Shown here: positions 2,049-15,853 of the stretch, piece after piece
How positions within the stretch are numbered: position 1 is the first letter of the stretch
How the letters are laid out: each line of letters begins with the position of its first letter
Origin: a virus
Length of the DNA: 46,177 nucleotides
IMG/VR virus record: IMGVR_UViG_3300005530_000037
Location: 1 to 46,177 of that record
Direction: 5' to 3' (one strand)
Notes under the pieces: generated by a model
Told to the model about the DNA's origin: nothing
Databases searched by the model: none
Seen by the model: only the letters and a program-made list of their open reading frames with translations
Position numbers and translations under genes: made by a program

Positions 2049-4009
2049 TACGATAAGCGTGATTTAGTCTTTGCTGACCGTGTGTATTGCAACTGTATAT
2101 CCTGGCCACGTAATATGCCTACGATTTGCCCGTCTTGCATACCGCCGCCATGTTGCACACCGGCGAAATCTGCTAAATGCTTTGGCGTTACGATAGCTTC
2201 CGGGCCCGCTTCTGCAAATTGACCGATACGTGGAGAGGTGAATATGCCGCCTGTGGCAAAAGAACTGAAACTACCAGCACTTGTCATGCTACTGGCATTA
2301 CCGCCTGTTAATGAACCCAAACCGCTTAACTGACCGAATATTTGACCGAAACTAATAGCACTACCAAATCCTGTAGCGGATAGTAATACGGATAGTATCG
2401 CTGCTGCTGCCGCCGCTGCTACAAGTTTCTCGATCAACTGTGTTAAGAATTGCCCCATAGCCTGTACAAATGATTGCGTACCCTGCATAGCACTTTCAAA
2501 TGCTGACATTAACCCATGACCTATTACAGACGACATTTCACGTAAGGCCATACTATCGGCTTTCGTCTCGGCTTTAAGCGCCTGGTTTGCGCGTATACTT
2601 GCCCATATTTGGTTTTGCCATTCGATGTGCGCTTGTACGGCTTTTTGAACTTCGTCGGCGGTGACGTTGTCGGATTGCAATGTATTTGGTATTACAAATC
2701 TATCAACTCCCTTTCCTTTTGTCCCGTCAGCTAATTTACCCTCACCCGTACCGGAAATACCCGGTGCTGATAGTTCTATTTGCGCAGCCCCACCGCCTGC
2801 AAGTAATGAATTTTCATAGGTCTTTTTTAATTGCTGCAATCTGTATTCAGCGGTTTCCAGATCGATAGCAAGTTGTTTGGCTATTGTTGGCTTATTGGAT
2901 ATAACAGCATCCTCAAGTTTTGTTTTTATCTTTTCAATTTCAGCCTCAATTGCTTTGAACCCGTCCTTTGCCTTTTCGCCTTTAGGATCATCTTTTGGCA
3001 TAAATGACCAGTGATGTTGCCCGGCTATTGCAGCGGCTTTGCTTTGGAAGTCATCAAATATTTTAAGCAGTGTGTTTTGATCGTCTGTAAACTTCTGCTT
3101 TTCTTTGGCACGGTTAATGTCAGCAATTTGATTTATTTGATCGCTTGCATTTGTGACAGGGCCTGCGCCGGTAGCACCCGGAGCCATCGTGCCGCCACGT
3201 ATAGCCATTTCAGTAAATGAACTTGGCTTAAATTCCTCTTGTGGTTTTAATGCTACTTTTGCCGCCTCTAATGCCTTGTCGCTTGCCTCTTTCAGTGCGG
3301 TTTGCGCCGCCGCCTTATACAACATCATTTTGATGTAATCCTGACCACCAGCAATAAGTTTACGTTCAACTTCATCGAGGCTTTTAACGGCCCCCATAGT
3401 TTTGCCTAAAGTTTCGTTATACTCTTTAACAACTTCTGTCTTGGAAATAAACCCGTCTTTAGCTAATTGAATGTTTTTAGTCAATTCAGCAACATTTGAA
3501 ACTGCTGTTGCATAGCTACTATCTAATGTGGCTGCAACTTGCTTTTGAGCATCTAAAGCAGAAGTGAAATTATTTGCCGCGTCGTATGCTTCTTTTTCAC
3601 CCTTGCCTAGTTTCTGAAATAGTTCAAAAGCCACAGTTAATCCCAATATAATACCGCCTGGGCCTAAAAGTGAACTCCCCAATGCTCCAAATGCACCTTT
3701 TAGTGACCCTGTTTCATTAATTAATGAGGTAAAGTGGTGGCCAGCGGCCATGAACATGAGATCCATTCTTTGGCCGCCTGATGCAACACCCATCATTACA
3801 TCTCTTGTTGCCGACAACCCACTTCGCATTTGCATGAAACGCATGCTCATAGATTGGACTGAACCACCTAATGCATCGCTTGATTTTGCAACATCTGCTA
3901 ATGATTTTGTAGCGTCAGATGAGAATGTTTCAGCCGTTTTAGCTGCATCGGCTAATCCCTGTTTATAAGTTGAAATATCAGCGCCTATTTTAACGTTCAG
4001 ATCACTCAT
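2048..4009 (-). CDS. Tail tape measure protein
   Basis: 653 residues. The N-terminus (residues 1-80) is Ala/Ser/Lys-rich and helical, typical of tape measure proteins that set tail length. A hydrophobic Gly-rich stretch (about 100-135) and an Ala-rich segment near 540-570 are likely membrane-active parts used in DNA ejection. The C-terminus has the classic tape-measure ending GGIFTSPRIGQFAEAGPEAI. It follows the G/GT chaperone genes, the invariant order in long-tailed phages. The size suggests a fairly short siphovirus tail. Confidence 0.9.
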   Translation of the reverse strand: MSDLNVKIGADISTYKQGLADAAKTAETFSSDATKSLADVAKSSDALGGSVQSMSMRFMQMRSGLSATRDVMMGVASGGQRMDLMFMAAGHHFTSLINETGSLKGAFGALGSSLLGPGGIILGLTVAFELFQKLGKGEKEAYDAANNFTSALDAQKQVAATLDSSYATAVSNVAELTKNIQLAKDGFISKTEVVKEYNETLGKTMGAVKSLDEVERKLIAGGQDYIKMMLYKAAAQTALKEASDKALEAAKVALKPQEEFKPSSFTEMAIRGGTMAPGATGAGPVTNASDQINQIADINRAKEKQKFTDDQNTLLKIFDDFQSKAAAIAGQHHWSFMPKDDPKGEKAKDGFKAIEAEIEKIKTKLEDAVISNKPTIAKQLAIDLETAEYRLQQLKKTYENSLLAGGGAAQIELSAPGISGTGEGKLADGTKGKGVDRFVIPNTLQSDNVTADEVQKAVQAHIEWQNQIWASIRANQALKAETKADSMALREMSSVIGHGLMSAFESAMQGTQSFVQAMGQFLTQLIEKLVAAAAAAAILSVLLSATGFGSAISFGQIFGQLSGLGSLTGGNASSMTSAGSFSSFATGGIFTSPRIGQFAEAGPEAIVTPKHLADFAGVQHGGGMQDGQIVGILRGQDIQLQYTRSAKTKSRLS

Positions 4010-13893: not shown

Positions 13894-14403
13894 TTAAGCA
13901 ACTTTTTTAATATATATCTTATTACCAATTATTTTACAGATAGTTGATTCCGACGCATTAAACATTTCCATCAGCTTTTTAACGCGGACTTTTTGCTTTC
14001 GTAGTTGACGTATTTCTTCGGCCTGTTCCCATGTTAGGCAGGCAAGGTTGTTATCTGCTCCATATTTTTTTGCCTTTAGCCCGGTATCCCATGCATGTTG
14101 ATTATTTTCTGAATGTGTACACCATTCTAGGTTTTCTACTCTATTGTCAGTTTTTATACCGTTTATATGATTGACTACCCGATAATTATTTGGATTTGCA
14201 ATGAAAGCAAGTGCAACTAAACGATGTATTTTAGGTGTCGTTCTTTTATTATTTACGTATAGTTCCGCACATAAATAACCACCTGTTGTTATCCATTGGC
14301 TTAAGTCTTTCCATCCTTTACCGCTTCGATATGAGCAATAGTTACCTAAATTACTAACTTTATAACATCCAAAAGTTCCTTCAACATTACGCCAAATTTC
14401 CAT
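13894..14403 (-). CDS. HNH homing endonuclease (NUMOD4-HNH)
   Basis: 169 residues. Residues 1-50 form a NUMOD4-like DNA-binding module (EIWRNVEGTFGCYKVSNLG). The nuclease core is IHRLVALAFIANP then NHINGIKTDNRVENLEW, the H-x-N-G-x-x-x-D-N-R-x-x-N-L-E form of HNH_3 enzymes. The C-terminus (LTWEQAEEIRQLRKQ, ASESTICKIIGNK) is a helix-turn-helix-like targeting module. It is a selfish free-standing gene just downstream of the capsid gene, bounded by terminators on both sides and preceded by a structured leader. It cuts DNA lacking its insertion. Confidence 0.9.
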   Translation of the reverse strand: MEIWRNVEGTFGCYKVSNLGNYCSYRSGKGWKDLSQWITTGGYLCAELYVNNKRTTPKIHRLVALAFIANPNNYRVVNHINGIKTDNRVENLEWCTHSENNQHAWDTGLKAKKYGADNNLACLTWEQAEEIRQLRKQKVRVKKLMEMFNASESTICKIIGNKIYIKKVA

Positions 14404-14414
14404 AACATAAAAAT

Positions 14415-14489
14415 GCCTTTAACGAGTTCAGGCGTGCAGGCCATCCCCCGTTAAAGGCTAAATGTCTTTAAAGTCGTTCTGCACAACGA
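14415..14489 (-). promoter_or_regulatory. Two-hairpin leader with complementary 6-nt loops (kissing-loop candidate), before HNH gene
   Basis: In the minus-strand RNA, hairpin 1 is TCGTT-GTGCAG-AACGA (14489-14474). Hairpin 2 has a perfect 10-bp outer stem GCCTTTAACG/CGTTAAAGGC (14458-14449 with 14424-14415) and an apical hairpin GGC-CTGCAC-GCC. The two apical loops, GTGCAG and CTGCAC, are exact complements, each exactly six nt. Hairpin 2 is followed by ATTTTTAT and the HNH ATG 11 nt after the stem, so it could act as terminator or block translation. Confidence 0.6.
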
Positions 14490-14501
14490 TTTATTTACAC
14501 C

Positions 14502-14509
14502 CAAATATA
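14502..14509 (-). promoter_or_regulatory. Possible −7 box for HNH transcript
   Basis: TATATTTG on the minus strand matches TAnnTTTG and lies directly after the capsid terminator. No TTTG is present at the proper −33 distance, so it is weak evidence. The start site would be just upstream of hairpin 1 of the leader. Confidence 0.3.
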
Positions 14510-14510
14510 C

Positions 14511-14538
14511 AAAAAAAGCCGAATATTTCATCGGCTTT
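14511..14538 (-). terminator. Rho-independent terminator after major capsid gene
   Basis: Minus-strand RNA: AAAGCCGA (14538-14531) pairs with TCGGCTTT (14522-14515), loop 8 nt, followed by further T residues. It lies 26 bases after the capsid stop codon and should end the head transcript. Confidence 0.8.
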
Positions 14539-14563: not shown

Positions 14564-15853
14564 TTATGAACCCGGGTTCACAAATGTGCCATATTCGAAA
14601 GCATCGTTGTAATAAATAACGTTTGCAACGCGGCCTTCCACCCTTACGGTGATCTGGTTGTTCTTCACGTTATCACCATCCTGCTCGAAAAACTCAACAA
14701 TTGGGTCCTCGCGGAATAGCAATTGAGCACCCATACTCCAGTCGCCGGTCAGGAACTTGTTAGCCGATTGTGCGGTTGATTTGTATGAAGTTGTGCCTGC
14801 CACCTCAAGACCGGTTGCTGCACCGCCGTAGCTTACCAAACCACCAGGCAGCGAATAGATACCAGCAGTTGATCCAGCCGATTGAGATAACAGCACGTTG
14901 TTATAACCGATAGGGTCAAGCAATATGCCTGTCGCAGTATGATTCAGCACCTCAAGTTGGCTGATCGAATCCACCAGCATTTCAACCGATTTGGTTTTGC
15001 CACCCGCATAGGCGATTGAGTTACCAGCTTTATAAAAGCCCTGTAATTCACCGTTTGCACCCGTGCCGTTCAGGATACCGTTATCCTCTGCATCGAGGTA
15101 TTTTTGCAGCAACCTGAAAGCCAAATTACTTTTCAGTGCAGGAATATCATCCAGCGACTTGCGAGAAATACGTATCCAGCCTGCAACAAATTCAGCTTCG
15201 GCGCTTTGCTCCTTGTAACGGATATCAAACTGTGGCTTTGCGCCGCTGTTTTCCTGCCATGTACCTATAGAGCCATCAAAACCAATTTCCTGTAAGTAGT
15301 TATACAAGGATGTGGTCATGCGGCCAGTTGCCATGATATCGCGCAAGTGAACTTTACGGGACGGGAACGGCACGATACCGGGCGCAACCTGCACGTTTGC
15401 AGCGGTCAGGTTTGTTATGCTGGACAAGCCCATATCGCCAACGGCCTTTAACTCCATACGTACCTTATTGGCATTTTTAAGTTTACCGGCTGCGAACGCT
15501 TTAATGTCGTCCATGTTTTCGTCCATAGCATCGTTAAATGCCTGGCCGAAAGACACACCCTGTTCTGCCGATTTTTTGTTAGCATCACGGAAACGGTTCA
15601 ACTCCAGTAACGCAGCTTCGTGTTCACCCAACTTGGCTTCCATAGCGGCCTTTTGGGTAAACATTTCTTCAATTTTACCTTTCAATTCCGTATTGGAATC
15701 AACAGCTGCTTTTACTTCTGTTGCGAATGCCTCTTTGACTTCCTTCGTCAGCTGCGTGGCATTCTCACCGCTTTTAACGTAGACAAGGTTAAGTTTTTCC
15801 TTAACCTGTTTCACTTCGGGACTGTCCCCCGCCTCAATTGGAAATATTTCCAT
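14564..15853 (-). CDS. Major capsid protein, HK97 fold
   Basis: 429 residues. Residues about 10-120 are a charged coiled-coil scaffold-like delta region (VKQVKEKLNLVYVKSGENAT...FTQKAAMEAKLGEHEAALLE), normally removed by the prohead protease. The body follows: RKVHLRDIMATGRMTTSLYN, ISRKSLDDIPALKSNLAFRL (family E-S-x-x-x-L-D-D... segment), a nucleotide-like GILLDPIGYNNVLLS and LTGDWSMGAQLLFREDPIVE near the end. It lies five bases after the protease gene and before a terminator. Confidence 0.92.
   Translation of the reverse strand: MEIFPIEAGDSPEVKQVKEKLNLVYVKSGENATQLTKEVKEAFATEVKAAVDSNTELKGKIEEMFTQKAAMEAKLGEHEAALLELNRFRDANKKSAEQGVSFGQAFNDAMDENMDDIKAFAAGKLKNANKVRMELKAVGDMGLSSITNLTAANVQVAPGIVPFPSRKVHLRDIMATGRMTTSLYNYLQEIGFDGSIGTWQENSGAKPQFDIRYKEQSAEAEFVAGWIRISRKSLDDIPALKSNLAFRLLQKYLDAEDNGILNGTGANGELQGFYKAGNSIAYAGGKTKSVEMLVDSISQLEVLNHTATGILLDPIGYNNVLLSQSAGSTAGIYSLPGGLVSYGGAATGLEVAGTTSYKSTAQSANKFLTGDWSMGAQLLFREDPIVEFFEQDGDNVKNNQITVRVEGRVANVIYYNDAFEYGTFVNPGS

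Follow-up and report, generated by a model that had tools for sequence, protein, structure and literature searches.

A leader RNA with kissing hexaloops precedes homing endonuclease and replication genes in phages that probably infect Bacteroidota

The window analyzed here, a 46,177-nucleotide stretch of viral DNA (IMG/VR record IMGVR_UViG_3300005530_000037), carries a two-hairpin leader on its minus strand, from 14489 to 14415, directly before a homing-type endonuclease gene. The apical loops of the two hairpins are exact complements and could kiss. Judged from comparative sequence evidence, this leader is one member of an RNA family with 17 distinct members, and a chance fold is excluded. 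The family is a new one among phage leader RNAs, although its general kind, the structured leader or attenuator, is already known. We infer that the RNA exerts control, and it probably acts as an on/off gate for the genes that follow it.

Both the sequence and the predicted fold confirmed the element in the window (Table 1). Read 5' to 3' on the minus strand, the locus consists of the capsid gene, a terminator, a -7 box, hairpin 1, a linker, hairpin 2, a U-tract and the AUG. The earlier note had described two six-nucleotide loops, GTGCAG and CTGCAC, as exact complements, and a 10-bp outer stem followed by U-rich sequence and a start codon 11 nt farther on; all of this was borne out, on a strand that had been left unnamed. 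That account, sound for the hairpins and loops, missed the GGAU/UGAA internal loop of hairpin 2 and the promoter box. The fold of the window leader outperformed 200 shuffled sequences (z -3.4). Pairs of hairpins with 5-bp and 3-bp inner stems and exactly complementary hexaloops within at most 90 nt occurred once in the window, whereas 20 dinucleotide shuffles averaged 0.05. Elsewhere in the window, at 39432-39586 on the plus strand, an Rfam tRNA match is stretched over 155 bases; ARAGORN does not call it, and it may be either a tRNA carrying a large insertion or a product of chance.

Table 1. Features of the leader locus in the window
Feature	Positions	Strand	Basis or remark
Major capsid protein gene, upstream of the leader	14564..15853	minus	Pfam Phage_capsid, E 6e-20
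Terminator between major capsid gene and leader	14515..14538	minus	terminator scan, sequence
Bacteroidota -7 promoter box TATATTTG (TAnnTTTG)	14502..14509	minus	exact box in 12/17 members; consensus from PMC6847099; start expected at about 14497
Hairpin 1: 5-bp stem TCGTT/AACGA, hexaloop GTGCAG (14484-14479)	14474..14489	minus	sequence, fold
A/U-rich linker, loosely conserved ACATT	14459..14473	minus	found in most members; ACATT dispensable, absent in L026
Hairpin 2: outer stem, 4x4 internal loop, 3-bp inner stem, hexaloop; GCCTTTAACG GG GGAT GGC-CTGCAC-GCC TGAA CT CGTTAAAGGC	14415..14458	minus	fold near-uniform across members; outer stem of 10 perfect pairs, 12 bp if a G-U pair is counted
Internal loop GGAU/UGAA and inner stem GGC/GCC of hairpin 2	14446-14443 opposite 14430-14427 (internal loop)	minus	
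Hairpin 2 loop CTGCAC, exact complement of loop 1 (putative kissing partner)	14434..14439	minus	compensatory loop changes, seven complementary loop pairs
U-tract AUUUUU directly 3' of hairpin 2	14409..14414	minus	U-run after the stem in every member
NUMOD4-HNH homing-type endonuclease gene, 169 aa, behind the leader	13894..14403	minus	Pfam HNH_3, E 1.7e-9; NUMOD4, E 1.5e-4, just under gathering score; ATG at 14403, 11 nt past the hairpin 2 stem and outside the hairpin

Relatives of the window carry the same element. In L016/L029, whose capsid protein is 62% identical to that of the window, a related nuclease follows right after the capsid gene, and its leader has the same core with different stems. 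A pattern search for the leader core recovered nine IMG/VR contigs and a Saprospiraceae MAG (L036). Seven members served to build a covariance model (R1), which, together with two patterns in which both loops were free, brought the set to 17 distinct sequences, all with E < 1e-4 under R1. In the rebuilt model (R2), every member scored an E-value of about 1e-8 or lower, and the next match had E 3.7. Identical and near-identical copies were counted once (L122/L128/L131/L133; L123/L126/L129/L130; L124/L132; L025/L027/L028/L032). The members come from uncultured phage contigs and two bacterial assemblies, and the viruses carrying the leader probably infect Bacteroidota; a covariance search of about 900 Bacteroidota genomes produced two solid matches, G001 and G299. 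A further match in G306 (E 7e-4) was rejected, as it resembles an ordinary perfect terminator. We also set aside L033-L035, three of the four matches in genome_contigs, which look like coding sequence from other phyla, and discarded by eye the unrelated, mostly coding-looking matches of the patterns with loop 1 fixed, with loops only and with loops free.

No family of Rfam 15, including c4 antisense RNA, matched over the element at the gathering score; at E <= 10, only sub-threshold STnc430 and Trp/Phe leader matches appeared around the element and the capsid terminator. The element was rejected as part of a group I or group II intron for want of an Rfam match. Three leaders compared by blastn with 50,697 isolate phage records returned short chance matches or none, and no paper describing this leader RNA was found in the literature searched, which was covered in part.

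The kiss is supported by the covariation among members. The loop hexamers are exact complements in 17 of 17 members, which use seven different sequence pairs (Table 2), the opposite of the missing loop conservation and compensation that the earlier note had named as grounds for refutation. In our alignment (A3), which was fitted to the two stems with the loop-loop pairs outside the model, 16 of 17 rows are exact over 6 nt; in L136 the exact complementarity is in an 8-nt loop that the model match does not reach. Changes on both sides were found in 22 of the 25 pairs of the stems and the loop-loop helix together. Among the six loop-loop pairs, four showed compensatory changes and two were invariant, while hairpin 1 covaried at all five stem pairs and both the outer and inner stems of hairpin 2 covaried as well. 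The internal loop GGAU/UGAA is instead conserved in sequence, except for UGAU/UGAU in L120 and GGAG/CAAA in the second L030 copy. Paired cells made up 96.2% of A3 versus 70.6% after shuffling, and at most 47.9% when partners were slid by one to three columns (41.2% and 47.9% for one column). Cells changed on both sides numbered 92 versus 20.2 in shuffles, although the sequences are related and the cells do not count as independent events.

The pairs that close the two loops also bear on the nature of the contact. Hairpin 1 closes with CG in 8 members, UA in 4, AU in 2 and GC in 1, whereas hairpin 2 keeps C-G in 15 of 17, indicating that the matching stops at the loop nucleotides, as it would in a true kiss. 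A longer loop-loop duplex was rejected since the closing pairs do not co-vary. Moreover, the phage G002 (75 kb) has two leader copies with different, mutually orthogonal loops, which favors pairing in cis.

Table 2. Loop pairs of the 17 members and the genes behind their leaders
Member	Loop pair	Gene or genes behind the leader
Window	GTGCAG/CTGCAC	NUMOD4-HNH type
L029	GTGCAG/CTGCAC	NUMOD4-HNH type
L031	GTGCAG/CTGCAC	HNH_3
L030, first copy	GTGCAG/CTGCAC	177-aa protein, no Pfam match, by eye like HNH/AP2-type nucleases
L120	GTGCAG/CTGCAC	GIY-YIG (T5orf172/MUG113)
L025	GTGCAG/CTGCAC	68-aa ORF, then DUF3987 protein
L026	GTGCAG/CTGCAC	HTH_36
L036	GTGCAG/CTGCAC	replication-initiator-like gene, no Pfam match, after DnaG-like gene
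L122	GGGCAG/CTGCCC	Lin1244_N protein, then DnaG-zinc-finger/Toprim/DnaB-type protein
L123	GGGCAG/CTGCCC	DUF6291
L125	GAGCAG/CTGCTC	DnaG-zinc-finger/Toprim/DnaB primase-helicase type directly (by sequence resemblance)
L124	GTGCCG/CGGCAC	large ORF like that of L025
L135	GTGCCG/CGGCAC	large ORF like that of L025
L137	GTGCCG/CGGCAC	same order as L122
L109	TGCCGG/CCGGCA	78-aa ORF, then DUF5906 protein (just under gathering score)
L030, second copy	GTTCAG/CTGAAC	HNH_3
L136	CGTGCC/GGCACG, within 8-nt loop	61-aa ORF of unknown kind

The leader appears to bring its own promoter. The published Bacteroidota -7 consensus is TAnnTTTG, with its G at position -5 (PMC6847099). An exact box was present upstream in 12 of the 17 members compared with 4.8% of shuffled sequences, and most of the remaining members have one with a single mismatch. 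In L125 and L136, the best match of the scan falls inside the element; L125 has TATCTTCG at the usual place. By the published spacing, hairpin 1 would begin roughly at +1 in three members (L026, L036 and L122) and roughly at +9 in the window, and in nearly all members the box is predicted to make hairpin 1 begin the transcript or lie close to its beginning. The capsid gene has a terminator of its own, which makes the leader a separate transcription unit and led us to reject hairpin 2 as the terminator of the capsid gene.

The genes behind the leader encode homing-type nucleases (NUMOD4-HNH, HNH_3 or GIY-YIG) or constitute the head or part of a replication module. The suggestion of an undescribed leader class before selfish or replication genes has therefore held, with HNH, GIY-YIG and replication genes following and Rfam unmatched. 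In L120 (G299 contig 87, 198-780, plus strand), the leader, a GIY-YIG gene and a DUF6291 gene stand in a row, and in L123 a leader of the same family directly precedes DUF6291 with no nuclease in between. Apparently, a nuclease was inserted in L120 between a replication leader and its gene. In the window, the leader-HNH cassette sits directly behind the capsid stop codon. In the relatives L012 and L018, which have no such cassette, the sequence behind the capsid gene can be aligned with the stretch that follows the HNH gene in the window (L012, score 35 against a shuffle maximum of 23; L018, score 30 against a 95th percentile of 23 and a maximum of 31), which implies that the leader traveled or was gained with the nuclease. 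The simplest reading of these gene orders is that the leader is native to replication operons and was probably captured from them by nucleases.

On balance, we lean toward a cis-acting leader RNA of about 85-95 nt, transcribed from its own promoter, that works as a transcription attenuator for the following gene. Hairpin 1, lying at the very 5' end of the transcript or close to it, would form first and could catch loop 2 on emergence, and hairpin 2 would dock on it by a 6-bp loop-loop kiss. The internal loop GGAU/UGAA, which is able to form consecutive sheared G-A pairs, would stiffen the arm of hairpin 2 and hold it straight for docking; the UGAU/UGAU variant in L120 retains the tandem G-A. 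Hairpin 2 and the U-tract would together make an intrinsic terminator, a gate just before the AUG, and the kissed structure would set the frequency with which RNA polymerase terminates before the gene. A condition or factor, such as a phage or host protein or a competing RNA, could shift the balance by acting on the kiss or the internal loop, and the kiss itself may favor or hinder termination. The leader would serve phage DNA-replication operons, and homing endonucleases would have captured it as a means of keeping the nuclease low or well timed.

All members have a stable hairpin with a U-tract directly after it upstream of the start codon, and the U-run is also present in members that were found without selecting for it. 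A simple terminator scanner did not flag hairpin 2, which it misses because of the internal loop. Prefix folding of the members gave no conserved antiterminator alternative; the sole recurring one was a long-range helix of the two loop hexamers, which can form a plain duplex as long as the 3' strand of hairpin 2 has yet to be transcribed. Both results count against attenuation, and so do two further points. The role of hairpin 1 would be unusual for a plain terminator, and the U-rich stretch before the AUG could serve ribosome entry instead. Bacteroidota do without Shine-Dalgarno sites (PMC6847099).

We regard translational control as possible but unlikely, with the kissed structure, ending about 10-30 nt before the AUG, blocking or aiding ribosome loading. 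The AUG is indeed close behind hairpin 2 in every member, RNA hairpins restrain homing endonuclease genes elsewhere (PMC2988022, PMC3014915), and the repZ loop-loop switch of plasmid IncI-alpha (cited in PMC10724649) offers an intramolecular precedent. However, no conserved pairing covers the AUG or the A/U-rich stretch in front of it, both of which fall outside the conserved structure, and termination better explains a U-run beside the stem. The AUG outside hairpin 2 and the U-tract after it favor transcription attenuation over a translation block of the T4 style, which the earlier note had invoked; we retain a presumed control role, but the T4 analogy is weak.

Still less probable is an RNA that acts in trans or confers immunity, in which the terminated leader would accumulate as a small RNA, kiss the leaders of transcripts that are incoming or newly made and cause those transcripts to terminate. 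The position at the head of replication operons, the self-complementary loops, the terminator-like end and the orthogonal pairs in one phage would all suit such an RNA, and the P4 CI RNA and the P1 c4 RNA are immunity precedents for a small RNA causing termination. The c4 RNA is among those listed in PMC2864571. Nevertheless, the partner is only 30-50 nt distant on the same RNA, so that pairing in cis should prevail, and no separate antisense gene was seen. We consider it improbable that the leader is a put-like element whose nascent folded RNA binds RNA polymerase and causes later terminators of the replication operon to be ignored. The resemblance lies in a nascent RNA with two hairpins, of about the same length and close to an early promoter of a phage: putL and putR of HK022 are about 70 nt with two stem-loops, and putL lies just 3' of its promoter (PMC9378689). 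That paper mentions no kissing loops for putRNA, however, and neither the terminal U-tract nor single-gene nuclease cassettes need long-range antitermination. Chance hairpins without function, for which one could cite that an isolated hexaloop match might arise somewhere in 46 kb, are hardly credible, being refuted by the covariation and by conservation, compensatory changes and a fixed gene position in 17 distinct members.

Complementary loops are also found in leaders outside this family. The PIF1 helicase leader of the window (24545-24417, minus strand, with the gene from 24416) has 9-nt complementary loops, GTGAGAAGT/ACTTCTCAC, a terminator-like hairpin 2 and then the AUG. In L146/L167, where the helicase is 67% identical, the loops are kept and both stems are changed. 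The earlier grouping of this leader with the nuclease leader was right as to the common architecture, but the two belong to different sequence families. L005, chosen solely for its HNH protein (44% like that of the window) and thus an independent case, has a leader unmatched by the model at about 300-435 on the plus strand, with the HNH gene at 435. The first hairpin of this leader has 6 bp and the loop sequence TGCGGG, and the second, which resembles a terminator, has an inner stem of 3 bp and the hexaloop CCCGCA; the two sequences are exactly complementary, and TTTTTTT and the start codon come next. In the minimum-energy fold of hairpin 1 alone, one extra pair forms inside the TGCGGG loop. 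Across the window and 14 further phage records, there were 12 cases, some loci being counted twice, in which a terminator-like hairpin ahead of an ATG has a loop matching that of an upstream hairpin over at least 7 nt, against a permuted mean of 3.2 and a maximum of 10 in 300 permutations. When loop complementarity was scanned for at 6 nt, no excess appeared (23 versus 17 expected).

The helicase and L147-type cases, few of them independent, suggest a wider leader design. Tentatively, Bacteroidota phages may share an RNA-only switch in which a 5' element recognizes the loop of a pre-start terminator, realized in several unrelated families and captured with its promoters by selfish nucleases. 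The candidate families are the class described here, the helicase leader, L160, L162/L170 and L147/L150/L152.

Several further leaders were noted in passing. In L162 (minus, 14895), L170 (plus, 1851) and L160 (minus, 7119), leaders before replication-like genes have a terminator loop that matches a 5' segment, the matches being AAGTAAGGAG/CTCCTTACT and AGTGAAGC/GCTTCAC. In L147 (plus, 2284), L150 (plus, 11968) and L152 (plus, 891), a 5' segment and the loop of the pre-start hairpin share 11-13 nt of exact complementarity (e.g. CGCAGAACAATTT); these three are among the longest such matches, and each begins a short way past a promoter-like box, which is clearest for L147 and L150. An HNH leader in L003 (about 2900-3000, plus) has a hairpin loop, CTTGGCGG, complementary to the start-codon sequence CGCCAAG, which looks like a pseudoknot over the start.

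Little is known about gene timing in Bacteroidota phages, and the leader makes RNA-based timing of replication directly testable. It is compact and supported by covariation, with a defined promoter and kiss and with interchangeable orthogonal loops, and it is common to replication operons and homing endonucleases, suggesting that selfish nucleases borrow the control RNA of their phage hosts. The leader could also be developed into a small, designable regulator for use in a phylum where genetic tools are scarce.

Known systems resemble the leader in part. The T4-type hairpins before homing endonuclease genes (I-TevI, mobE, segB; seg43) are likewise structured RNA right before such phage genes, and in the window and several relatives the leader indeed lies directly upstream of a homing endonuclease gene, with replication genes in that place elsewhere. 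T4-type hairpins sequester the ribosome site (PMC2988022, PMC3014915), whereas neither the window nor any other member has a sequestered ribosome site or start codon; the unusual hairpin of seg43 in Aeromonas phage 25 likewise lies just upstream of the ribosome site and leaves it uncovered (PMC2988022). The T4-type hairpins are single and mostly hide the ribosome site, no kissing partner or U-tract has been described for them, and, unlike our family, they have no conserved core common to replication genes. In the P4 and P1-c4 leaders, short complementary RNA segments decide the premature termination of a replication operon. These (c4 is Rfam RF01695) are replication-operon phage leaders as well, but their partners are separate RNA segments instead of two hairpin loops of one compact element, and our leader has no Rfam match. 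The repZ loop-loop pseudoknot of enterobacterial plasmids is a translational switch with an antisense RNA partner. Such leaders of IncI-alpha, IncB and IncL/M plasmids (references in PMC10724649), in which two leader hairpin loops pair before a replication gene as here, are likened to ours by description and differ in the enterobacterial plasmid setting, the antisense partner and the translational output. Finally, HK022 putRNA, too, is a nascent RNA with two hairpins that is made close to an early promoter of its phage (PMC9378689); it acts on RNA polymerase far downstream with no kiss described, whereas our leader places a terminator-like hairpin just before the AUG.
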